From contig JAHEEE010000020.1 in the NCBI GenBank assembly GCA_024640845.1, forward strand, positions 1-53,943: 53,943 nucleotides of DNA, given 5' to 3'. Source of the stretch: Myxococcales bacterium (GTDB taxonomy: Bacteria > Myxococcota_A > Polyangia > Polyangiales > Houyiibacteriaceae). Shown piece by piece: positions 1,948 through 47,038 of this stretch. Every line of letters starts with the position of its first letter. Positions within the stretch are counted from its first letter, which is position 1. Under the pieces are notes generated by a model. The model was given only the letters and a program-made list of their open reading frames with translations. It did not search any database and had not been told where the DNA came from. The position numbers and the translations under genes were made by a program.

Positions 1948-3162
1948 TTAATCCCCACGGCGTTGGTCCCGAAGGGCGCGAATTCGCAGGCGAAGGGCGT
2001 TGAGGCGGATGAATCCTGTCGCGTCTTGCTGATCGTACACCTCGTCCGCTTCAAACGTCGCGAACTCCGGGTCGTAGAGGGTGTTGGGGCTGCGCCGACC
2101 GACGACGTCAGCGTTGCCTTTGTAGAGCTTGATCCGCGCCTCGCCGGTGACGTCTTTTTGTGCGTCGTCGATGAGCGACTGCAGCATTTCGCGCTCGGGC
2201 GCGAACCAGAAGCCACGGTAGACCAGCGAGGCGTACTCGGGAATGAGACCGTCACGGATGCGAAGCACCTCGCGGTCGACGGTGATCGACTCGACCGCGC
2301 GGTGCGCCTTGTGAAGGATCGTGCCTCCAGGCGTCTCGTAGACACCGCGTGACTTCATGCCGACAAAACGATTCTCTACGATGTCGACGCGGCCGACGCC
2401 GTGCTTGGCGCCAATCTCATTCAGGCGAGTGATCAGCGAGGCTGGCGAGAGGCGCTCGCCGTTGACGCTTATCGGGTCCCCTTTTTCATAGCCCACGATG
2501 ACATATTCCGGCTCGTCCGGCGCGTCCTCTGGGGCAGTCGTCCAGCGGAACATGTCCTTGAGGGGCTCGTTCCAGGTGTCCTCGAGAATCCCGCCCTCAT
2601 AGCTGATGTGGAAGAGATTTGCGTCCATCGAGTAGGGCTTTTCGGCCGTCACCTCGATCGGGATCTTGCGTTCCTTGCAGTACGCGACGCAATCGCTTCG
2701 AGATCGTAGATTCCACGTTCGCCAAGGCGCGATGACCTGAATGCGAGGATCGATCGCCATGGCCGTGAGCTCGAAGCGGACCTGGTCGTTGCCTTTGCCG
2801 GTCGCGCCGTGCGAGATGGCGTCGGCGCCTTCGGCCTTGGCAACGTCCATCATGGCCTTGGCGATGAGAGGACGTGCGATCGACGTGCCGAGCAAGTAGT
2901 CCCCCTCGTAGAGCGCGTTGGCGCGCAACATCGGGAAGCAGAAGTCGCGGGCAAACTCTTCCTTGAGGTCGGCGATGACACACTTCGATGCGCCGGTTGA
3001 CTTGGCTTTTTCGTCGAGACCTCCGAGATCTTCACCCTGCCCCACGTCCGCACAGAACGCGATGACCTCGGCGTCATACGTCTCTTTGAGCCACGTCAGA
3101 ATGACGGATGTATCGAGGCCGCCGCTGTAGGCGAGCACAATCTTCTTGGGGGTCGCTGCCAT
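1948..3162 (-). CDS. argG: Argininosuccinate synthase
   Basis: Converts citrulline, aspartate and ATP to argininosuccinate, the penultimate step of arginine synthesis. The 404 residues match the family's usual ~400. The N-terminal P-loop-like AYSGGLDTS (residues 11-19) binds [16 protein letters not shown] and the [10 protein letters not shown] segment are also family signatures. I place the start at the ATG at 3162 (MAATPKK), because the 17 residues an upstream start would add look non-coding and SGGLDTS should sit near residue 15. It is separated from argF by the chaperone module, so the cluster is argB-D-F-(J protein)-(dnaK)-(helper)-argG. argC, argJ/argA and argH are not in the window. Confidence 0.96.
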
Positions 3163-3209
3163 GAAGCCGGATGGTAGTGGTCGGCCCGGTCGGTGCAAGC
3201 AGCCAGGCG

Positions 3210-3812
3210 TCAAGCCACGCGGATGATGGCTTTCGCGTCCAATAGCTCCGTGAATACGCGCAGCGCCTCGAGCCGCTTCATCTGGCAGGCCTCCAGCACC
3301 TCAACAACGGTGGATTGGCCGTCGACCAGGGACAGCAGGAACGCCGCCTGGGGGTCGAGTCCGAGCCATTTCACTTTCGCGACGGGGACCGCGAGGTTGA
3401 AAATGTAGTCGAGCGAGCCGATGCGGGTGGTGTACCGGGCCTCGAGCCGCTGCCGACTCGTCTCGGCGTATTGACGAGCGCCTTCATCGCTCGGGTCGAC
3501 ACCGAGCTGAAGCTCTGCCGCGGTCAACGCAGCGACGTAATCACCGAGGGCGAACCGATCGGCGATCTCCTGATGAATGTCGTCAGGGAGCTCGACTTCA
3601 GACTCGCCCTCACCGCCGACCGACGGCGCAGGCGGTAAGGGAAGCAGGGTGCGCCGATCCCGGTCGACGATCCAAGCGTCGCCCGATGGGCGTAGCGTCG
3701 ACCGCTCGCCCGAACTTTGGGCAAGCGCCCCGCCGCTCAGATCGATGCGGCCGTCAGCCCCGAGCACTCCTGGGTGTTTGGACTCGCGCGAACCGGGCTT
3801 CGTGGTCGCCAT
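3210..3812 (-). CDS. Chaperone-module helper with C-terminal winged-helix-like domain
   Basis: A 200-residue soluble protein with no signal peptide. Residues ~80-130 look like a short helical (TPR-like) segment. The C-terminal ~60 residues ([17 protein letters not shown] ... [15 protein letters not shown]) follow the helix-turn-helix-like pattern common in myxobacterial regulatory and J-domain proteins. The same pattern occurs at the N-terminus of the J protein at 5684-7159, on the other side of dnaK. It starts three bases after the dnaK stop, so the two are almost certainly co-translated. I cannot assign a biochemical activity; a client-binding or adaptor role for the DnaK paralogue is inferred from this context. 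Confidence 0.75.
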
Positions 3813-3815
3813 CGC

Positions 3816-5648
3816 TTATGCAGACTTGCCGACGACGCCCTTAAACATGCGCTGCGTTCGGCCGAGCGACTCGAGCTCCTCTTCGAGGCCGTCGATGTCA
3901 CTCTGCTCGAGCAACGTTCTAGCCTTGTCGACCACGCCCTTGGCCTTGTCGATGGCGTCGCGCCCGAAATCGCTGCCAGCCACGATCGACTCGACCTCGG
4001 GGAACAGCCGCTCGATCTCGGCGATGAGCGTCTCGGCCTGTTGGCGGATCTTTTCGGCTGCTTCGTCTTCACGGCGTGTGACCGCGAAGTCCGAGGCATC
4101 TGTCATCATCTCGTTGATCTCGTCCTCGGTCAGACCGCTCGTCGCGGTGACCGTGATCGACTGCTCTTTGCCCGTCTCGACGTCCTTGGCGTGCACGCTG
4201 ACGATACCGTCCGCGTTGATCTCGAAAGTGACCTCGACTTCCACTTGACCGGCCGGCGCGCGCCGAAGCCCAGTCAGGATGAACTCGCCGAGAAGCTCGT
4301 TATCCTCCGCGCGGCGCGACTCGCCTTGGAGCACGAGGATTTTCACCGCGGTCTGGTTGTCTCGTACCGTCGTGAATGGCTTGCTGCGCGAAGTCGGCAC
4401 CGTCGTGTTTTGCGGGATGAGCTCTTCGAAATAGCCTCCGACGACCATGATACCGAGGGTATGCGGTGTGACGTCGAGGAGAACCATGTCGAGCTCCGGC
4501 GAGTCGTCGACGAGCGCGGCGCCCTGAATCGATGCTCCTAGCCCGACCACTTCGTCCGGATGGACGCCCTTGCAAGGTTCGCGCTGGAAGAACTTGCTCA
4601 CGCGCTCCTGCACCTTCGGCATGCGCGTCATGCCGCCGACGAGAATGATGTCTTCGATCTCGTCCTTGCCGAGACCGGCCTCGCCAAGCGTGAGCTCGCA
4701 AATCTGAATCGTTCGGTCGACGAGGTCGGCCGTGAGCTCTTCGAGGGTTGAGCGCGTGAGGAGGCGCTGTAGATGAAGTGCCTCGTTTCGCGCGCTCGAA
4801 ATGATGAAAGGCAGGTTCACTTCGGTCTCGGTGACCGCGGAAAGCTCGCACTTGGCCTTTTCGGCTGCGTCTTTCAGGCGCTGAAGGGCCATCCGATCCT
4901 GCCGGAGGTCGATGCCGTGCTCGTGCTGGAAACCCTCGACCAACCAGTCGATGACGCGCTGGTCGAAATCCTCGCCGCCAAGGAACGTGTCGCCTGCAGT
5001 GCTGATGACCTTGAACACGCCGGAGCTCGAAATCTCTAGAATCGAGATGTCGAAGGTGCCGCCACCAAGATCGAAGACCGCCACGGTGCGATCGATGTTC
5101 TTGCCGAATCCGTAGGCGAGCGCAGCCGAGGTGGGCTCGTTGATGATGCGAATGACGTCGAGCCCGGAAATGGCGCCAGCGTCTTTCGTCGCCTGGCGCT
5201 GATTGTCGTTGAAATATGCGGGAACGGTGACGACGACCTTGTTCACCTCTTCGCCGAGGTAGTCCTCGGCGACCATCTTCATCTCCTGCAGCACCATCGC
5301 GCTGATCTCGGGAATGGAGTAGACCTTGTCGCGCATCTTGATGCGGCAGTCGCCATGTGGCCCCTCCACGATGTGGAACGGCGTCGTCTGAATGGCGTTC
5401 TTCACCTGTGGGGTATCCCACTTGCGGCCGATCAACCGCTTGCAGGCATATACGGTGTTCTCCGCGTTCGTCACGGCCTGCCGCTTGGCGATGTGGCCCA
5501 CCAAGCGTTTGCCGCCTTCCGTCACGGCCACCATCGATGGGGTGACCTTGTAGCCCCCTCGATTAGCGATGACCACGGGCGTGCCGCTCTCGACTACGGC
5601 AACGCACGAGTTGAAAGTACCTAGGTCAATCCCGATGACTCTTTCCAT
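3816..5648 (-). CDS. DnaK/Hsp70 paralogue
   Basis: A 610-residue Hsp70. The nucleotide-binding domain has the phosphate-1 motif DLGTFNSC (residues 8-15), [23 protein letters not shown] and GGMTRMPKV. The substrate-binding domain starts with [10 protein letters not shown] and a helical lid follows. Two features mark it as a paralogue, not the housekeeping DnaK. The second Thr of GTTNS is Phe (residue 12), and the C-terminus ends in GVVGKSA without the acidic EEVKDD-type tail. It lies between a J-domain protein and a small helper, inside an arginine gene cluster. No HrcA/CIRCE-like inverted repeat was seen upstream. ATP-driven folding of a dedicated client set is inferred. Confidence 0.92.
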
Positions 5649-5683
5649 GCCCCACTTCCAAGCGCTCAGATGCGTTCGTCACA

Positions 5684-7159
5684 TCATCCCCCGAGCTGCT
5701 TTCTAAGATTTTTCACCATCTCGTGCCGCGGGTCCAGCTTTGCAGCCTCATCGAGCTCTTTTGCGGCGCTCGCATCCATCCCAGCCTCGATGTAGATGCG
5801 CGCCAGGAGAAGGCGGGTTTCCAGCGAGTCCGGCTTCAATTCCAAGCTCCGGAGCGCGTAATCTCGTGATTTTCGGAGATCGCCACCGGCAGCCAGCAGG
5901 GCCTTGGCGGCTCTCCGAGGCGCCACCGGGTCTTCTGGAGCAGCATCGGCGACCTTGGCCCACGAAATACTGGCCGCGGACCACATGTTGTTGTCTTCCT
6001 CGTACTTTGCCTGCTCTCGGTGGATGTCGAGAAGCTGCACACGGAGCCGGGAGTTCACCCGGTCGTAGTGCTCCTGGAGCGATCGATCGGTGGAATCGAG
6101 CGCAATCGCCATGCGAAGCGCCGTGGCGGCGGCGGCGAGATCGCCCTCGGCCTCCGCGATCCTCGCGTTCTGAATGTGGTTCTGCGCCCGATCGACACCG
6201 CCAGTGAGCACCGCGGTCTGTTTCAGCGAGCGCGTCAGGTCGCGTAGTGCGGTCTTGTGACCGACGCGTGCGGTCGGCGCAGGAATCGAACGGGCCGGAC
6301 GCGACGATGATGGGCGCCTGCCCCGGCCGCGAAGCCGGCGCTCGAGCAGCTCCCGCTTGCGCAACATGCGCTCGTGCTCTGGGGTTCCCGGAACCACGGA
6401 AGGCGGTGACTTCGAGGGGGCGGGTCTCGAAGGGCTCGTTTGTTCGGGCGCCGCGGTGGGGCGCCACTTGGGCGCTGCTTGGGCTTCTTCGACCGCCTGC
6501 GCATGGCGTTCCACGACGGGCGTCTTGGTGAGCGCCTTAGCCATCGCTTGTGCACGCTCTTCCACGCGGTCGATCGTCTGCTCGGCGGTAGACACGGCGA
6601 TACTCTGCCGCAGGTAACGATCATACGCTTCGCGCTTCTTCGGTCTTCCCACGGCTTCATAGGCGTCAGTCACCCTACGGAAGATCACCTCCATCTGAGC
6701 CTTGTAGGGTCCGAGCCGCTTCCCGAAGTACGCGTCCGGATGAAAGGTCTTCGAGAGTGCGAAGTACGCTTTGCGAATCTCGGCCCGGTCCGCGTCGATG
6801 GGGACGCCGAGGAGCTGATAGTGGTTGAGCTTGTCGGCGCGATGAAACACCTCGTGAATGCGCTTCTGAAGCTCCTCGCCGATCTCGACGTCTTGAACGA
6901 CCTCGGTCTCGGGTGGGGCACTCGACGCCTTGGGCGTGATCCACTCGACGAGCTCGAGTGAGATGAGGCGCTCGATCGACTTCCGAACTTCTTCGGGCGA
7001 CAGTACGGTCACGTCGGCGATGTCCTCGACATTGAGCACACCATCGATGCACGAATGCACGAACGCTTCCTGCCCCGAGATCTCGTGCGCCCTCACATCG
7101 GCGTCGTCCACTAGACGCGGGATCTGTTCCTCAGGCAGTGACTGCCCAGCTTCCCCCAT
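5684..7159 (-). CDS. J-domain protein with N-terminal winged-helix-like domain and C-terminal TPRs
   Basis: 491 residues in three parts. Residues ~20-75 form a small helical domain (SGQEAFVHSCIDG ... EVRKSIERLISLELVEW) like that in the helper at 3210-3812. Residues ~112-185 are a J domain (HYQLLGV ... FHPDAYFG, with HPD at 140-142) that should stimulate an Hsp70 ATPase. Then comes a Pro/Arg-rich linker, and TPR-like repeats from ~335 to the end (AEGDLAAAATALRMAI; LLAAGGDLRKSRDYALRSLELKPDS). There is no signal peptide. It precedes dnaK by 35 bases on the same strand and is the obvious cochaperone. This J-first, TPR-last layout is not that of DnaJ, CbpA or DjlA. Confidence 0.88.
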   Translation of the reverse strand: MGEAGQSLPEEQIPRLVDDADVRAHEISGQEAFVHSCIDGVLNVEDIADVTVLSPEEVRKSIERLISLELVEWITPKASSAPPETEVVQDVEIGEELQKRIHEVFHRADKLNHYQLLGVPIDADRAEIRKAYFALSKTFHPDAYFGKRLGPYKAQMEVIFRRVTDAYEAVGRPKKREAYDRYLRQSIAVSTAEQTIDRVEERAQAMAKALTKTPVVERHAQAVEEAQAAPKWRPTAAPEQTSPSRPAPSKSPPSVVPGTPEHERMLRKRELLERRLRGRGRRPSSSRPARSIPAPTARVGHKTALRDLTRSLKQTAVLTGGVDRAQNHIQNARIAEAEGDLAAAATALRMAIALDSTDRSLQEHYDRVNSRLRVQLLDIHREQAKYEEDNNMWSAASISWAKVADAAPEDPVAPRRAAKALLAAGGDLRKSRDYALRSLELKPDSLETRLLLARIYIEAGMDASAAKELDEAAKLDPRHEMVKNLRKQLGG

Positions 7160-7178
7160 GCTCGTAGCTTAGCGCGTC

Positions 7179-8117
7179 CTACCCGAATCCAGCCACTTCG
7201 CGAGGCTGAGCGAGCAGCCACTCCAACAGCGCCTTCTGGGTGTGCAGCCGGTTCTCGGCCTCGTCCCAGACTCGGGACCGCGGACCATCGATGACCGACG
7301 CGCTCACCTCTTCGCCGCGGTGAGCGGGCAGACAATGGAGGAATATCGCGTCGCGGTGGGCGCGCTTCATCGCAGCGTCGTCAATGATGAAACCGGCGAA
7401 CGCGCGCTCTCGCTCGGCCGCCTCGGCTTCCTGGCCCATGCTGGCCCAGACGTCGGTCGTGACGACCGTCGCGCCATCGAGGGCCTCCTCCGGTCGCTCG
7501 ACGACCTCGACCCTTGCCCCTCGAGACCGAGCGTCTGACAAGACTCCCGGGTCTGGCTGGTACCCCGGCGGGCAGGCGAGGACGAGCTCGAAACCCGCAA
7601 TCGCAGAAGACACGATCCACGAGTGCGCCATGTTGTTTCCGTCGCCGACCCAGGCAACGCGCGCCCCCTCGAGCGACGGACCGAAGCTTTGGCGGATCGT
7701 CATCATGTCCGCGAGCAGCTGTACGGGGTGGAACTTGTCAGAGAGCCCGTTGACCACTGGAATCGTAGCGGCGCGCGCGAGCGCCTCGAGCCGCTCGTGA
7801 CCAAAGGTTCGATAGACCACGCCGTGCACGTACCGGCTCAGCATGCGCGCGGTGTCTTCAATGGGCTCGCCGCGGCCGAGCTGAGTATCTTTGGAAATGA
7901 GCGTGACGGGCTGCGCCCCGAGCTCGTGGATGCCCACCTCGAACGAAAGCCGCGTCCGCGTGGACGCCTTCTCGAATACGATCGCGATCGACTTGCCCCG
8001 AAGAGGCTCTGGATGTGCGGATGTACCACGGACCGCCTTCAGCTCCGCAGCGCGATCGAGCACCCCGAAGAGCTCGTCGCGGCTTAGATCGGAAATTGTC
8101 AGGAAATGGCGGGTCAT
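7179..8117 (-). CDS. argF: Ornithine carbamoyltransferase
   Basis: Makes citrulline from ornithine and carbamoyl phosphate. 312 residues, the usual size. Carbamoyl-phosphate binding residues lie in FEKASTRTR (residues 49-57); HPVQLLAD and the C-terminal HCLPAHRGEEV (ornithine and carbamoyl-phosphate site) are intact. The ATG at 8117 is used because it gives the standard N-terminus ([12 protein letters not shown]), and its first bases overlap the argD stop as ATGA, which indicates translational coupling. An upstream extension would run antiparallel through argD without any family similarity. The J-protein gene begins 19 bases downstream. Confidence 0.96.
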   Translation of the reverse strand: MTRHFLTISDLSRDELFGVLDRAAELKAVRGTSAHPEPLRGKSIAIVFEKASTRTRLSFEVGIHELGAQPVTLISKDTQLGRGEPIEDTARMLSRYVHGVVYRTFGHERLEALARAATIPVVNGLSDKFHPVQLLADMMTIRQSFGPSLEGARVAWVGDGNNMAHSWIVSSAIAGFELVLACPPGYQPDPGVLSDARSRGARVEVVERPEEALDGATVVTTDVWASMGQEAEAAERERAFAGFIIDDAAMKRAHRDAIFLHCLPAHRGEEVSASVIDGPRSRVWDEAENRLHTQKALLEWLLAQPREVAGFG

Positions 8118-9325
8118 GGCTTTGTCGGTGCCTCTGCGACCACTCTTTCGAGGATCGACAGCCCTTCGTCGAGCTCGTCCCGAGTCACGTTGAGCGCGGG
8201 CGAGATGCGGATGACGTCGCCGCCTGCGAGGGTCAGCAACAAACCCGCTGCGTGAAGCGCCGCGATGGTCGCGCCAGGATCGATCTCGTCGGCCAAGACC
8301 AGCCCTTGGAGCAAGCCGAGGCCTCGAACGCCCGCCGTCGTCGAGAGGCGCGCGTCGATCTCTGCGAGCCGGGCGGCGAGATACTCGCCTTGGGCACGAG
8401 CGTTCTCGATGAGCCCCTCTTCGTCGATGATGCGGAGGACGGCTAACCCGGCGGCGCACGCAAGCGGGTTTCCGCCGAAGGTGCTCGCGTGGCTGCCCGG
8501 CGGTAGGCCGCCGGCGAACCGCTCGGTGACCGCCATCGCGCCAAGCGGGAAACCACCGCCGATGCCCTTGGCCAACGAGCACGCGTCCGGCGCGATGCCG
8601 TAGTGCTCCTGCGCGAGGAAGGCGCCGGTTCGACCGTAGCCGGTTTGGATCTCGTCGAACAAGAGGAGCGCGCCACGCTCGTCGCAGATCCGGCGCGCGC
8701 CCTCGACGAACTCCGCCGTAGCGACGATGATGCCGCCTTCGGCTTGTATCGGCTCGAAGATCACGGCCGCGATCTCGTCGGTCACGGCCCGGTCGAGCGC
8801 GGAGAGGTCGTTGAAGTCGATGAAGCGCACGCCTTCGATCAAAGGCGCCATACCCTTGTGATACTTCGGCTGTCCGGTGAGGGAGAGGGAGCCCATGGTC
8901 CGGCCATGGAAGCTATTGAAAGTCGATACGAAGCCAGTGCGCTTCGTTTCGCCTCGGTCGTGGTGATAGCGGCGCGCGAGCTTCAGCAGCGATTCGTTGG
9001 CCTCGGAGCCGCTGTTGCAAAAGTAGACCCGGTCGAACGGCGTCCGGGCGCAGATCGCCTCGGCGAGCTCGATGGCGCGGTCGTTATAGAAGACGTTCGA
9101 TACGTGCATCAGGCGCCCGGCCTGCTCGGCGATCGCGGCGGCCAAGGTCGGATGGCTGTGCCCTACCGACAGCACGGAGATTCCACCCGACAAGTCGAGG
9201 TACTCCCGCCCCGCGGCGTCGGTCACACGGCGGCCGTGCCCATGCGTCAGAACGAATGGCGCGGGCGCGTAGTTGCCGAGCTGAACCTCTTTCGCGGTGC
9301 GAAGCATGTCATCCTGCCTGGTCAT
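8114..9325 (-). CDS. argD: Acetylornithine aminotransferase
   Basis: A PLP enzyme of aminotransferase class III (403 residues) that transfers the amino group between glutamate and N-acetylglutamate semialdehyde. It may also serve lysine synthesis as succinyl-diaminopimelate aminotransferase. Visible motifs are SGSEANE (105-111), the PLP-phosphate region NSFHGRT (137-143), DEIQTG (224-229) and the Schiff-base Lys253 in SLAKGIGGG. The start at 9325 has an AAAGG seven bases upstream. It is coupled to argF by an ATGA overlap and lies 69 bases from argB. Confidence 0.95.
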
Positions 9326-9394
9326 CGTATGCCTTTTGGGGAAGCCCGCGGCATACCACCATTGCGCGGAAGCGTCGACCCTGGTTCGGCCGGA

Positions 9395-10297
<903 letters not shown>

Positions 10298-10420
10298 TTA
10301 CTGCGCGTCACCGATGGGTATCACCGACTGGCCCCGTGCTACCGACCAACCACCGCAGAGTTCCAACGACTCGCCCGATGGCCCCGTTCCGTTGCGGGCA
10401 TTCGTGGTAGCCCGAGCCTC

Positions 10421-11455
10421 ATGCCGCAAGCTCAAGCCGTCAATCCCACGACCTTCTACACCGACAGTAACAAGCGCAAGCGCATCGGGAGCACCATCCG
10501 TGACTACATGGGGTTCTTCGACGAGGCCACCGGAGGCGGCGTCGAAGCGCGCAAAGCGCACTACGCCAAGATGATCAACAGCTACTACGACGTCGTGACT
10601 GACTTCTACGAGCACGGTTGGGGGCAGTCGTTTCACTTCGCGGCTCGTGCCAGGGGAGAGTCGTTCGAAGCTTCGCTTGCTCGCGCGGAGCACTATATGG
10701 CGCTTCGCCTCGGTCTTCAGGCGGGAATGAGGGTGCTCGATGTCGGCTGTGGGGTTGGCGGCCCCATGCGTTCGATTGCGCGTTTCTCGGGTGCGGCGGT
10801 CGAAGGTGTCAACAACAACGACTACCAGCTCGAGAAGGTGCGAAGTCACAACGAAGAGGCGGGCTTGAGCCACCTCTGCTCCGCATTCAAAGGCGACTTC
10901 ATGAACCTCCAGGTTCCGGACGGCTCTTACGACGCGGCCTACGAGATCGAAGCGACCTGCCATGCGCCCGACAAGGCAGCCGCGTTTTCGGAGATCCATC
11001 GCGTGCTCAAGCCCGGGGCCCTCTTCGCCGGATACGAGTGGTGCATGACCAGCGCGTTCGACCCGGAAGATCCCCGGCATCAATGGATCAAGAGCGAGAT
11101 CGAGACGGGTGACGGGCTCCCCGACATCTACACCATTCCCGATACCCTCGAGGCGCTTCGTACCGCCGGATTCGAGGTGCTCGACAACTTCGACGCTGCG
11201 CTTTGCAGCGACCCAGAAACCCCGTGGTACCTCCCGTTGCGCGGCGAGCTCGCGAGTCTCTCGACGATTCGCCGCGGGCGGCTCGGCCGACGCCTCGCAC
11301 GACGCACGATCGGCGCCCTCGAGACTCTCGGGATCGCTCCCAAGGGATCGAAGGAAGTCAGTCTCATGCTCGGCCGAGCCGCCGAGGGCCTCATCGCGGG
11401 CGGAGAAATCGGCATCTTCACACCGAGCTTTTTCTTTCTCGCCAAGCGTCGATGA
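10421..11455 (+). CDS. Sterol 24-C-methyltransferase (Erg6/SMT family)
   Basis: A 344-residue SAM-dependent methyltransferase expected to methylate C-24 of a sterol side chain. The diagnostic SMT motifs are all present: YEHGWGQSFHF (residues 63-73, the sterol-binding YExGWG region), SAM motif I LDVGCGVGGP (106-115), VNNNDYQ (130-136), IEATCHAP (176-183) and GYEW (204-207). The C-terminal ~60 residues (GIAPKGSKEV ... AAEGLIAGGEIGIFTP) follow the Sterol_MT_C domain of fungal and plant enzymes. Generic class I methyltransferases lack these motifs. The ATG at 10421 is the only good start; it lacks a clear Shine-Dalgarno. Its stop overlaps the next start (ATGA). Whether the preferred substrate is zymosterol-, cycloartenol- or lanosterol-like cannot be decided here. 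Confidence 0.9.
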   Translation: MPQAQAVNPTTFYTDSNKRKRIGSTIRDYMGFFDEATGGGVEARKAHYAKMINSYYDVVTDFYEHGWGQSFHFAARARGESFEASLARAEHYMALRLGLQAGMRVLDVGCGVGGPMRSIARFSGAAVEGVNNNDYQLEKVRSHNEEAGLSHLCSAFKGDFMNLQVPDGSYDAAYEIEATCHAPDKAAAFSEIHRVLKPGALFAGYEWCMTSAFDPEDPRHQWIKSEIETGDGLPDIYTIPDTLEALRTAGFEVLDNFDAALCSDPETPWYLPLRGELASLSTIRRGRLGRRLARRTIGALETLGIAPKGSKEVSLMLGRAAEGLIAGGEIGIFTPSFFFLAKRR

Positions 11456-12507
11456 ACCTCGCCAACGCAGCGGAAGCCTCGGAGATCGAGGAAGCCCGCC
11501 TGGCGACCTATCCCGCTCCCTACCCCGAGGGATGGTACGTCGTCGCACGCGACAAAGACCTTGCGACGGAGCCGACCCAGGTCCGCGTCGCAGGCAACGA
11601 CGTCGTCTTGTTTCGAGACAACGAGGGGCAAGTCCGCGCGATCGAAGCGTACTGCCCTCACATGGGCGCGAATCTTTCTGACGGCGTAGTGCGCAACGGA
11701 TGCATCGAGTGCCCGTTTCACAAGTGGCGAATCGACGGGCAAGGACGCGTGGTGCGGATCCCCAAAGGTCAGAGCTCCGAGCCGGTGCACCGAACTTCGT
11801 CGTGGCCCGTCATCGACCTGCACGGTTGGATTTGCATCTTCCATCGGCACGGCGAGCTCACTCCCGGTCCAGCGCCGGCGCCGCCCTACTACCTCGAACG
11901 CGTTCGCGAGATCGACGACGGGGAGCTTCGCTATCGTGGTGAATACGATGCCGGCGCGATCCACATGCACTTGCTCGAGTTCGTCGAAAACAGCGTCGAC
12001 TACCAGCACTTCGAGCCGATCCATGGAGAGCTTCGGATCCCTTGGACCAACATCCCGGTGCCCGGCATGCGGATCGAGCACGAGGCGAGTTGGAGGCGTG
12101 ACGCGAGCGAACCGCAGGTTTCTTGGTTCGAAAACGAAGCCCAGCTCGCGTTCCGCGGCAAAGTGATTCCGCGTTCTGGAGCGACCGCCAAGGTCCGCCT
12201 GGAAGGCCCAGGCGGCATCATTCGCTTCGATTTCCGCATCGCAGCCAACGGCGGCCGCGTCGTGATGTTTCAAAGCCACACTCCGACGGGACCGCTCACC
12301 CAACGGGTCCGGTTCCGTTGGTTCAGCGACCGAAGCGTATCCAAGCTTCAAGCGGCGTTCATCGTCGGCCACTGGGTGTCGCAGTGGCGCCAAGACCTAG
12401 GCATTTGGTCGCGAAAGATCTACCGAAAGCGCCCCCTCCTCTCGCGAGCCGACGGCCCGGTGCATCAACTCCGACGCTGGTACGCGCAGTTTTACCCGGC
12501 GCGCTGA
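11452..12507 (+). CDS. Rieske non-haem iron oxygenase, DAF-36/Neverland-like, probable sterol oxygenase
   Basis: 351 residues. The Rieske [2Fe-2S] ligands are C68-P-H70 and C87-PF-H90 in AYCPHMGANL and GCIECPFHKW. The CPHxGANL and GCIxCPFHxW forms are those of cholesterol 7-desaturases (DAF-36/Neverland). The mononuclear iron site is N180-xx-D183-xx-H186-xxxx-H191 (VENSVDYQHFEPIH), as in ring-hydroxylating and KshA-type oxygenases. There are no obvious transmembrane segments. It starts inside the stop of the sterol methyltransferase (ATGA), so the two are made together. Bacterial sterol Rieske enzymes are known to act at C-4 (SdmA), and animal ones at C-7; the position attacked here is unknown. 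No reductase is adjacent. A Rieske ferredoxin lies at 35208-35555. Confidence 0.85.
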   Translation: MNLANAAEASEIEEARLATYPAPYPEGWYVVARDKDLATEPTQVRVAGNDVVLFRDNEGQVRAIEAYCPHMGANLSDGVVRNGCIECPFHKWRIDGQGRVVRIPKGQSSEPVHRTSSWPVIDLHGWICIFHRHGELTPGPAPAPPYYLERVREIDDGELRYRGEYDAGAIHMHLLEFVENSVDYQHFEPIHGELRIPWTNIPVPGMRIEHEASWRRDASEPQVSWFENEAQLAFRGKVIPRSGATAKVRLEGPGGIIRFDFRIAANGGRVVMFQSHTPTGPLTQRVRFRWFSDRSVSKLQAAFIVGHWVSQWRQDLGIWSRKIYRKRPLLSRADGPVHQLRRWYAQFYPAR

Positions 12508-12527
12508 CGCTGACGTCGACGTCAGCG
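12508..12527. terminator. 20-bp perfect palindrome immediately after the Rieske stop
   Basis: The twenty bases following the TGA are perfectly self-complementary around a central TCGA. They could form a cruciform or hairpin between the convergent Rieske and hslU genes. No T-tract follows, so it is not a canonical Rho-independent terminator. A protein-binding site is an alternative. Confidence 0.4.
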
Positions 12528-12542
12528 CGGGAGCCGTCACGC

Positions 12543-12836: not shown

Positions 12837-14242
<1,406 letters not shown>

Positions 14243-14246
<4 letters not shown>

Positions 14247-14797
14247 TCGCCCATCTCCTCAACGACGATTTCCTGATTCGTATAAACGCAGATCTCGCCC
14301 GCGATCTCGAGCGAACGGCGAGCGATTTCCGCCGCCGACAGATCGCTGTTACGTAGGAGCGCGCGCGCCGCGGCCAATGCATACGAGCCGCCCGACCCAA
14401 TCGCGATGACGCCCTCGTCGGGCTCGATGACATCGCCGGTACCGCTGATCAGGAGCGTCGCTTTGGCATCCATCACGATCAGCATCGCCTCCAGGCGGCG
14501 CAGGTATCGATCGGTCCGCCAGTCCTTGGCGAGCTCGACGGCGGCGCGCTGAAGGCTGCCGCGGTACTCCTTGAGCTTGGCCTCGAAGCGGTCGAGCAAC
14601 GTGAACGCGTCGGCGGTGGCGCCAGCGAACCCCGCGACGACCTTGCCGTCAGCGATCCGCCGGACTTTGCGCGCCTGCCCTTTCATCACGGTCTGGCCGA
14701 GCGAGACTTGACCGTCTCCTGCCATGGCGGCTTTGCCGTCTCGACGTACGGCAACGATGGTCGTGGAGCGAAAGATAGGCGGCTCAGGATTACGCAT
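14243..14797 (-). CDS. hslV: HslV, peptidase subunit of the HslUV protease
   Basis: Proteasome-like threonine peptidase, 184 residues. The mature N-terminus is expected at Thr12 (STTIVAVRR), so an 11-residue propeptide ([11 protein letters not shown]) must be removed to expose the nucleophile. [15 protein letters not shown] and the [14 protein letters not shown] segment are typical. It forms a hexameric ring stacked on HslU. Translational coupling to hslU (ATGA) is as in other bacteria; xerC lies 36 bases upstream on the same strand. Confidence 0.97.
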
Positions 14798-45055: not shown

Positions 45056-47038
45056 ATGGACACGGCAGAGCAGCGTCGTCGTATGGTGGAACGGCACGTG
45101 GAGGCCCGGGGCGTCCACCATGCGGGGGTGCTCAAGGCGATGCGTCACGTGCCGCGCGAAGCGTTTCTCCCCGCACATCTCGCGGAGTTCGCCTACGAAG
45201 ACACGCCGCTTCCAATCGAAGAAGGGCAAACCATCTCGCAGCCTTTCATCGTTGCCGCCATGGCCGAGGCGCTCGAGCTCGGCCCCGAGGACCGGGTGTT
45301 GGAGATCGGGACAGGCTCCGGCTACGCAGCGGCGGTCCTTGGTGAAGTGGCCCGTGAGGTCTACACCGTCGAGCGCCATCGCTCGCTCGCCGAGCAAGCC
45401 GAGAGCAGGCTCAAGTCGCTCGGATACCGCAACGTGCACGTTCTATGTGGGGACGGGACCCTCGGGTGGCCGGAACAAGCGCCCTTCGATGCTATTTTGG
45501 TTTCCGCTGGGGGGCCCAACGTACCGAGTCTCCTTCTCGAGCAGCTCGCCCCCGGAGGCCGAATCGTCATTCCAGTGGGAAGCGACTTGCGAGACCAGCG
45601 CCTACTTCGGGTGACCAAGAAGCCAGACGGCACCACGAGCACCGAAGACCTCGGCGGCGTTCGCTTCGTGCCACTCATCGGCGCCGGCGGGTTTCCGGAG
45701 GGTGTTGGTGCGCCCAAGCCGACGACTCCTGCAGGACCGGCGTCCCCCATTGCGCATCTGATTCGAGAGGCCTGTCAGCCGATCACCGGCATCGATGACC
45801 TCGATCTCGGTCCGCTGCTCGATCAGATCGGCGATGCGCGGGTCGTGCTTCTCGGCGAGGCGACGCACGGGACTTCGGAATTCTATCGCATGAGGACCCG
45901 CATCACGGCCGAGCTCGTGATGCGGCGCGGCTTCAACATGGTCGCGATCGAAGGAGACTGGCCAGACGCAGCCCGAGTCGATCACCACGTTCGTGGCTTG
46001 AAGTTTCCGCTTCGCGACGATCTGACATTCACTCGCTTCCCTGCTTGGATGTGGCGTAATCGAGAGGTCGTCGAGCTGATCACTTGGCTCAAGTCACACA
46101 ACGAGGTGGTGGAAGATCCACGACGCCGCGTCGGATTTCATGGTCTCGACCTCTACAGCCTCTACAAATCGCTCGATGCGGTTCTTCACTATCTGGACGA
46201 TGTCGATCCCAAAGCCGCGAAGATCGCGAGGGAGCGCTACGCTTGTCTTTCGCCGTGGGAGCGCGACCCTGCGCTTTATGGGCGCGCCGCGATCACGGAG
46301 GGCTACGCGCGGTGTGAACGCCCCGTGGTCGACGTTCTTCGCGATCTCTTGGAGCATCGGCTCGACTACGCGAAGGCGGATGGCGATCGGTTCTTCGACG
46401 CAGCCTCCAACGCCCACTTGGTGGCTGCCGCCGAAGAGTACTATCGCGTGATGTACTACGGAGGCCCGGCTTCTTGGAATCTCCGCGACCAACACATGTT
46501 TGACACGCTCGAGCGGCTGCTCTCGTTTCGTGGACCCGACTCCAAGGCGGTCGTTTGGGCTCACAACTCGCATGTGGGCGATGCGCGTGCGACCGAAATG
46601 GGTGCCGCGCGCGGCGAGCACAACATCGGCCAATTGTGCCGCCAGGCGTTTGGTGATGAGGCCTTCTCCATCGGGTTCGGAACTCACACGGGCACGGTGG
46701 CTGCTGCAACCGACTGGGATGGTCCCATGCAAATCAAGAGAGTGAGACCCTCCCATCCGGCGAGTTACGAGCGCCTCTGCCACGATGCGGGCGTTGCGGC
46801 ATTTCTGCTCGCTCTTCGGTATCCTGCGCGCGACTCCGTGCGCGAAGAGCTGGGGTCTCCTCGGCTAGAGCGGGCCATCGGCGTAATCTATCGACCAGAA
46901 ACCGAGCTTCAGAGCCATTACTTTCAGGCTGCCTTGCCTTGGCAGTTCGACGCGTACGTTTGGTTCAACGAGACCCGCGCGGTAGAGGCGTTGGAGCTCG
47001 ACGTCGCACGTGCCGAGATCCCGCATGTCTACGGATGA
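45056..47038 (+). CDS. Fusion of protein-L-isoaspartate O-methyltransferase and erythromycin-esterase-like domain
   Basis: 660 residues. Residues 1-~215 are Pcm: GQTISQPFIVAAMAEAL, SAM motif VLEIGTGSGYAAAVL (~81-95), ILVSAGGPNVP and GRIVIPVG. It should repair isoaspartyl residues in aged proteins. After a Pro-rich linker, residues ~230-655 are an EreA/DUF-type esterase domain: LLGEATHGTSEFYRMR, IEGDWPDA, VVWAHNSHVGDA and SIGFGTHTGTVAA, with the catalytic His and Glu in place. The same fusion exists in other bacteria. The esterase substrate is unknown; true erythromycin resistance is not implied. Six bases after hsp20. Confidence 0.9.
   Translation: MDTAEQRRRMVERHVEARGVHHAGVLKAMRHVPREAFLPAHLAEFAYEDTPLPIEEGQTISQPFIVAAMAEALELGPEDRVLEIGTGSGYAAAVLGEVAREVYTVERHRSLAEQAESRLKSLGYRNVHVLCGDGTLGWPEQAPFDAILVSAGGPNVPSLLLEQLAPGGRIVIPVGSDLRDQRLLRVTKKPDGTTSTEDLGGVRFVPLIGAGGFPEGVGAPKPTTPAGPASPIAHLIREACQPITGIDDLDLGPLLDQIGDARVVLLGEATHGTSEFYRMRTRITAELVMRRGFNMVAIEGDWPDAARVDHHVRGLKFPLRDDLTFTRFPAWMWRNREVVELITWLKSHNEVVEDPRRRVGFHGLDLYSLYKSLDAVLHYLDDVDPKAAKIARERYACLSPWERDPALYGRAAITEGYARCERPVVDVLRDLLEHRLDYAKADGDRFFDAASNAHLVAAAEEYYRVMYYGGPASWNLRDQHMFDTLERLLSFRGPDSKAVVWAHNSHVGDARATEMGAARGEHNIGQLCRQAFGDEAFSIGFGTHTGTVAAATDWDGPMQIKRVRPSHPASYERLCHDAGVAAFLLALRYPARDSVREELGSPRLERAIGVIYRPETELQSHYFQAALPWQFDAYVWFNETRAVEALELDVARAEIPHVYG

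Follow-up and report, generated by a model that had tools for sequence, protein, structure and literature searches.

A two-gene operon in the genome of an uncultured myxobacterium encodes what is, by its sequence, a bona fide bacterial member of the SMT/Erg6 family of sterol C-24 methyltransferases (SMT), translationally coupled to a Rieske non-haem iron oxygenase. The same genome has no detectable means of building a sterol, and from the gene content we lean towards a role for the operon in tailoring acquired sterols, by C-24 methylation and ring oxidation, in a host that would not make sterols itself. The window, meaning the whole stretch of 53,943 nucleotides that was analysed, is contig 106 of a draft assembly (G000) of 4.14 Mb in 145 contigs, estimated as 95.6% complete with 0.5% contamination. 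Named relatives of this genome are uncultured Myxococcota, and its GTDB family includes the genome of Sandaracinus sp. NAT131, the source of PABA01000070.1.

The SMT gene runs on the forward strand from an ATG at 10421 to a TGA at 11455 and encodes 344 amino acids. The original prediction held that the protein carries motifs specific to sterol methyltransferases beyond a SAM fold, and all of these were found. Region I reads YEHGWG (residues 63-68; 10607-10624, + strand) and keeps the Y and W of Erg6 YEYGWG; the SAM-binding motif is LDVGCGVGGP (residues 106-115; 10736-10765, +), in which D107, G109, C110, G111, G113, G114 and P115 are invariant in 23 family members; YEIEATCHAP follows (residues 174-183; 10940-10969, +), with Y174, E177, A178 and C180-P183 invariant in 23 family members, and then YEW (residues 205-207) and the Sterol_MT_C domain (residues 281-342; 11261-11446, +). 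Pfam gives Sterol_MT_C a score of 68.4 bits, where the curated cut-off is 21.7, alongside general methyltransferase domains in the same protein. It is the sole such match in the genome (E 2e-19), and the domain was detected in none of 14 control genomes. At the threshold used, Sterol_MT_C did not match either of two plasmid methyltransferases found by similarity, one of which bears the label "delta(24)-sterol C-methyltransferase". The aromatic residues of Erg6 YEYGWG are described as required for 24-SMT catalysis and as missing from the nematode 4-SMT (PMC6997595); this aromatic signature, lost in 4-SMT, is present in the window SMT as YEHGWG.

In a maximum-likelihood tree of 67 proteins, made up of bacterial SMTs and outgroup methyltransferases, the window protein lies well inside the bacterial SMT group, as the bacterial part of the originally proposed tree required, and is bracketed by the tandem SMTs of the Sandaracinus MAG NAT131 (PABA01000070.1), to which it is 57% and 49% identical. 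The split between the SMT group (61 rows) and the plasmid outgroup methyltransferases is supported at 91/83, which is good if not decisive; several outgroup branches are long. A Foldseek search with a model of the SMT was uninformative, returning the small-molecule methyltransferases AtmM, SpnF and MitM and no sterol methyltransferase among the best 50 matches. Given the family membership and the retained catalytic motifs, we infer that the enzyme would use SAM to methylate a delta24 sterol at C-24.

The second gene (ATG 11452 to TGA 12507, + strand) encodes a 351-residue Rieske non-haem iron oxygenase, which Pfam, an AlphaFold2 model and a tree place in the KshA/DAF-36 superfamily. Both its Rieske domain (84.5 bits) and its KshA_C domain (78.8 bits) exceed the Pfam cut-offs, and the metal ligands are intact. 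The predicted [2Fe-2S] ligands, C68-X-H70-X16-C87-X2-H90, lie in the motif CPHMGANLSDGVVRNGCIECPFH (11653-11721, +) and the mononuclear iron motif, E179-X3-D183-X2-H186-X4-H191, reads ENSVDYQHFEPIH (11986-12024, +). The third iron ligand, D315 (12394-12396, +), is likewise intact, and these ligands are all invariant in 28 homologues. The model has a mean pLDDT of 91.8 and its best structural matches are to KshA, the 3-ketosteroid 9alpha-hydroxylase oxygenase (Z 30.0-31.5, rmsd 2.5-2.9, 300-311 residues aligned; next family Z 24.9), which also provides the nearest solved relatives by sequence. The Pfam domains, metal ligands and steroid-oxygenase-type fold thus bear out the expectation of a Rieske oxygenase at this position, and a steroid is its probable substrate.

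Which steroid oxygenase it most resembles is a separate matter. The likeness to KshA extends from the fold (Z 31.5) to the X16 spacing, the iron ligands, KshA_C and a C-terminal DGPV-QLRRWY-QFY motif, but identity is about 25% and the window protein is linked to an SMT. In a quick tree it belongs to its own clade of 14 (SH-aLRT 100), apart both from KshA and from the SdmA-like proteins that cyclase clusters encode, whereas the KshA sequences (4QDF, Nocardia and Rhodococcus) form a clade of their own at 100; assignment as KshA was therefore rejected. SdmA, the 4beta-methylsterol monooxygenase that acts as a sterol C-4 methyl oxidase, is comparable as a bacterial Rieske sterol oxygenase, and cyclase clusters within the same family include SdmA-like proteins. 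This assignment was also rejected, because the NCBIfam model NF052579, which has a cut-off of 600, gives the window protein 63.5 bits, and because in the tree the protein falls outside the CAHRQLKL-type clade that comes from these clusters. Nowhere in the genus does a genome reach that cut-off. The original prediction had likened the cluster motifs to those of the sterol C7-desaturase DAF-36/Neverland. The published metal-binding pattern of that enzyme, C-X-H-X16-17-C-X2-H with E/D-X3-D-X2-H-X4-H, does match, but KshA fits it equally, and the DAF-36/Neverland label is weak because the motifs do not discriminate. The printed numbering of the worm enzyme (H124, C143) implies a spacing of 18 residues from the Rieske His to the second Cys, versus 16 here. 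By analogy with DAF-36/Neverland, C-7 desaturation is one candidate reaction for the window protein.

The Rieske alignment has 18 matches in this genome, an expansion of which L189 (8935-10864), L190, L191, L192 and L193 are examples. Several of the matches carry a CPH-x-GAHLG-x-GG motif with X17 spacing, including two adjacent genes in L189. A separate SMT-linked Rieske clade with a longer Rieske spacing was also seen (L110, L121, L139, L141, L155, L160 and L161), in MAGs labelled Nitrospira, Nitrospinae, Dadabacteria, Chloroflexi and Gammaproteobacteria, and linkage of an SMT to a Rieske gene therefore seems to have more than one origin.

The two genes share an ATGA stop-start overlap at 11452-11455 (+), as had been claimed, consistent with translational coupling; the same ATGA is found in the related loci L057, L058 and L059. 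A GC-rich inverted repeat at 12501-12530, directly past the Rieske stop, is possibly a terminator for the pair, and no Rfam match was found within the window. The pair was also correctly described as opposed to its neighbours: argD (8114-9325), argB (9395-10282), hslU (12837-14246) and hslV (14243-14797) are all on the reverse strand, their names being taken from sequence reading and from copies in relatives that are 83-92% identical. Elsewhere in the window, a single forward frame at 45056-47038 has a protein-L-isoaspartate methyltransferase domain (216 bits) ahead of an erythromycin-esterase family domain (449 bits).

The interval between argB and hslU is a syntenic variable site. On its left, argB adjoins the SMT gene in G014, G020, G022, G028 and G029, and on its right hslU shares a contig with the SMT gene in G014, G020 and G022. 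In the window the Rieske gene stands beside the SMT gene and the site is intact on one contig. In G022 the whole sterol synthesis cluster lies between hslU and the SMT gene, in G014 hslU comes almost directly after the SMT gene, and in G020 the site holds unrelated oxidoreductase and ketosynthase-type genes. In the other SMT subclade of the genus, the SMT-Rieske pair is sited elsewhere in the genome. The partners at the argB-hslU site therefore range from a Rieske gene, or none, to a mevalonate-to-cyclase cluster or unrelated genes, and the SMT gene is its constant part. The original impression that the pair was inserted as a unit is right in pointing to a variable site, but the SMT gene is constant there and it is the partner genes that differ between relatives. 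The GC content of the pair (0.629) is close to that of the window (0.625); its GC3 of 0.76-0.77, versus 0.83-0.85 in argB, argD and hslU, is at most weak evidence of recent arrival.

Sterol_MT_C is found above its cut-off in 23 of the 34 genomes of the family, and an SMT is present in 11 of the 19 genomes of the genus. More widely, a search with the SMT alignment recovered at least 515 related stretches in species-representative genomes, and many of the SMT-bearing MAGs would be sponge symbionts, to go by their isolate names. Adjacent SMT and Rieske genes occur in eight genomes of the genus, G000 counted. Among the matches listed, the pair spreads beyond the genus to a second genus and to two MAGs filed under other phyla; the examples outside the genus are L094, L074 (with the order reversed) and L102 of Gemmatimonadota (with the Rieske gene upstream). 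When the window genes are compared with those of nearest relatives, Nei-Gojobori dN/dS is about 0.11 (SMT) and about 0.145 (Rieske gene), and between G016 and G025, both without the synthesis cluster, it is 0.07 and 0.08; in wider comparisons synonymous sites are near saturation and the values are rough. These ratios point to purifying selection on the pair and give no indication of relaxed or absent constraint. Because gene order and coding constraint are both kept across the genus, the pairing is not due to chance. A decayed remnant of the pair is found at a conserved site in G026 (C48; L196, 9544-10338), where alignment to the intact locus of G024 reveals two internal deletions, by which the SMT gene has lost most of its length and the Rieske gene its N-terminal third. 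This remnant, and several congeners without the pair, indicate that it is not essential.

Two SMT-bearing loci came from records unmarked as MAGs. Locus L146 (7517-14211; NZ_JAGGOG010000028.1, titled Pseudomonas fluorescens strain ISL-62) contains an oxidosqualene-cyclase homologue, an SMT (Sterol_MT_C, 66 bits) and a CYP51 homologue, its sterol genes mostly having a lower GC3 than their neighbours; if this is not contamination, it offers a cultured strain for an in vivo test of a bacterial SMT. Locus L118 (10001-12131; JARACJ010000010.1, titled Proteobacteria bacterium DTSAM18) has two tandem SMT genes.

The original prediction proposed a search of the rest of the genome for sterol synthesis genes, and this search returned a CYP51, no cyclase, no real squalene epoxidase and no SdmA above the cut-off. 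As judged by family-profile and protein searches, on which all absence calls in G000 rest, neither SQHop_cyclase_C nor SQHop_cyclase_N, two independent domains, has a match in the genome, which speaks against an oxidosqualene cyclase and also against a hopene cyclase. For squalene epoxidase the search gave at best 25.5 bits over 79 positions, a score typical of generic FAD proteins; for the squalene synthase of the synthesis cluster nothing exceeds 28.6 bits, and an orthologue of the cluster HMG-CoA synthase is absent. The combination of cyclase and squalene epoxidase that marks a complete bacterial sterol pathway was thus not found in G000. In contrast, a CYP51 orthologue lies at C79:47764-49137 and is 81% identical to its G029 homologue, which scores 446 bits against 6MCW, a solved structure that we take to be Methylococcus CYP51. 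NCBIfam names for the cluster P450 all fall under their cut-offs, and its CYP51 identity was confirmed by the PDB search. Two ERG4/ERG24 proteins are also present (447 and 430 bits), one matching 4QUV, a bacterial delta14-sterol reductase of solved structure, at 432 bits and the other at 234. A TetR regulator gene and a 4Fe-4S-type ferredoxin gene adjoin CYP51, and its neighbourhood (L226, G000 C79:38001-58000; 2636-12078) also has genes for a LipL-like esterase and for ring-cleavage enzymes resembling HsaC and HsaD, none of which reaches its cut-off. Congeners have comparable CYP51 loci, the cyclase-less G014 and G025 among them.

Elsewhere in the genus, the synthesis cluster comprises mevalonate genes, squalene synthase, squalene epoxidase and a cyclase with a VSDCTAE motif. 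It occurs together with an SMT in G017, G022, G024, G027 and G029, although in G027 the cluster contig is short and the cyclase itself was not seen; G030 has the cyclase and no detected SMT. The cluster is missing from six of the 11 SMT-bearing genomes (G000, G014, G016, G020, G025 and G028). Among these six, the listed completeness is 100% for G016 and G025 and only 81% for G020, whose assembly is a single contig. The cluster-less genomes fall in both SMT subclades, and so this arrangement probably arose more than once. Tailoring genes without synthesis genes are, on sequence evidence, a repeated pattern in the genus.

Sterol genes of this kind have precedents. Two functional SMTs, active in vitro, were reported from the sterol cluster of a North Atlantic Sandaracinus MAG, and in Chlamydiae there is an earlier case of an SMT unaccompanied by other sterol genes (PMC10070321). 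The tandem SMTs of PABA01000070.1 are apparently the assayed pair, as the description fits. They share with the window SMT the protein family, GTDB host family, motifs and Sterol_MT_C, but belong to a complete sterol cluster that includes a cyclase, whereas the window SMT is coupled to a Rieske gene in a genome in which a cyclase was not found. In the eukaryote Capsaspora owczarzaki, imported cholesterol is converted by an SMT, a Rieske C7-desaturase and a C22-desaturase (PMC4967820). As is proposed for the window pair, a sterol from outside is there modified by an SMT together with a Rieske oxygenase; however, Capsaspora also has a full pathway and the C22-desaturase, and no two-gene operon was described (PMC4967820).

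Since G000 lacks the squalene-to-cyclase part of the pathway and has a CYP51, two delta14-sterol-reductase-type proteins, the SMT and the Rieske protein, remodelling of acquired sterols is the most likely function. Alkylated sterols in this organism would need an imported substrate, and the original idea of a locus making them de novo is not upheld for a genome without a cyclase or a real squalene epoxidase. Sterols or early intermediates would be taken up from prey, from neighbouring sterol-making organisms or from the environment; the SMT would methylate C-24 of an acquired delta24 sterol with SAM as donor; and the Rieske protein would oxidise or desaturate the steroid nucleus through its [2Fe-2S] cluster and mononuclear iron, with electrons from a ferredoxin-reductase coded elsewhere. 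Enzymes of the Rieske type depend on electron partners, and the pair itself encodes none. In related species that have the synthesis cluster, alkylated sterols would be products of de novo synthesis instead. A more specific proposal, which we put forward tentatively and at somewhat less than even chances, is a "headless" pathway in this uncultured genus, in which uptake is followed by trimming by CYP51 and delta14-reductase and by C-24 alkylation and ring modification by the SMT-Rieske operon. CYP51 without a cyclase has a precedent in Mycobacterium tuberculosis. Counting against acquired sterols, the delta24 bond on which SMTs depend is absent from most finished environmental sterols, and the retention of CYP51 and delta14-reductases would imply use of 14-methyl sterols of the lanosterol or cycloartenol type, which are rarer in the environment than finished sterols.

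Were an oxidosqualene cyclase cluster present in the organism and missing from the draft, the pair could finish an endogenous pathway, and an assembly of 145 contigs always leaves some chance that a cluster was missed. The cluster or parts of it in six congeners, its position in G022 at the very site of the window pair, and the persistence of CYP51 and sterol reductases in G000 are all in keeping with de novo synthesis. However, every tested cluster gene is absent at 95.6% completeness, one contig spans the intact argB-hslU site and has no cluster there, and five further SMT-bearing congeners lack it, including the single-contig chromosome and both genomes listed as fully complete, making synthesis by this organism unlikely. 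Degradation of steroids by the Rieske protein in the manner of KshA, with many other Rieske proteins of the genome, and with the SMT modifying an intermediate or having a side activity, would fit KshA as the nearest solved relative by sequence and fold, the 18 Rieske matches, and the HsaC-like and HsaD-like genes near CYP51. Yet the window protein lies outside the KshA clade, the scores for HsaC (235 against a cut-off of 450), HsaD (187 against 400) and cholesterol oxidase (54 against 850) are all far too low, and C-24 methylation, the activity expected of its tight partner, is no help to degradation; we consider a catabolic role rather improbable. The failure to find a cyclase in G000, and hence any obvious endogenous sterol, together with the ability of SMT-family members to shift position specificity (PMC6997595), could also mean that the SMT acts on a non-sterol isoprenoid or at another position, such as C-4 in the manner of the nematode 4-SMT, and that the Rieske protein finishes a specialised metabolite. 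This is very doubtful, as the Region I aromatic signature is kept, the protein nests among SMTs of which many lie beside cyclases, and CYP51 and the two sterol-reductase-type proteins point to sterols.

The original prediction saw novelty in a bacterial locus for C-24 alkylation, given its bearing on sterane records, but bacterial SMTs and their consequences for sterane biomarkers had already been reported (Brown et al. 2023, PMC10070321). The present analysis adds a Rieske partner coupled to the SMT, kept in the genus and seen outside it, and the repeated occurrence of tailoring genes without synthesis genes. Steranes alkylated at C-24 are taken as evidence of eukaryotes, a reading that the known bacterial SMTs already weaken. 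If bacteria do re-alkylate foreign sterols, this reading would be weakened in a second way, since one could no longer judge from a cyclase gene, present or absent, which genomes can leave C28 and C29 sterols, and if the "headless" pathway is real, some bacterial C28 and C29 sterols would be remodelled skeletons from other organisms. For a ring-modifying step on sterols in bacteria, the coupled Rieske protein offers a concrete candidate, and the genus, with the pair kept both in genomes that have the synthesis cluster and in genomes that do not, offers a natural experiment on the loss or gain of sterol synthesis.
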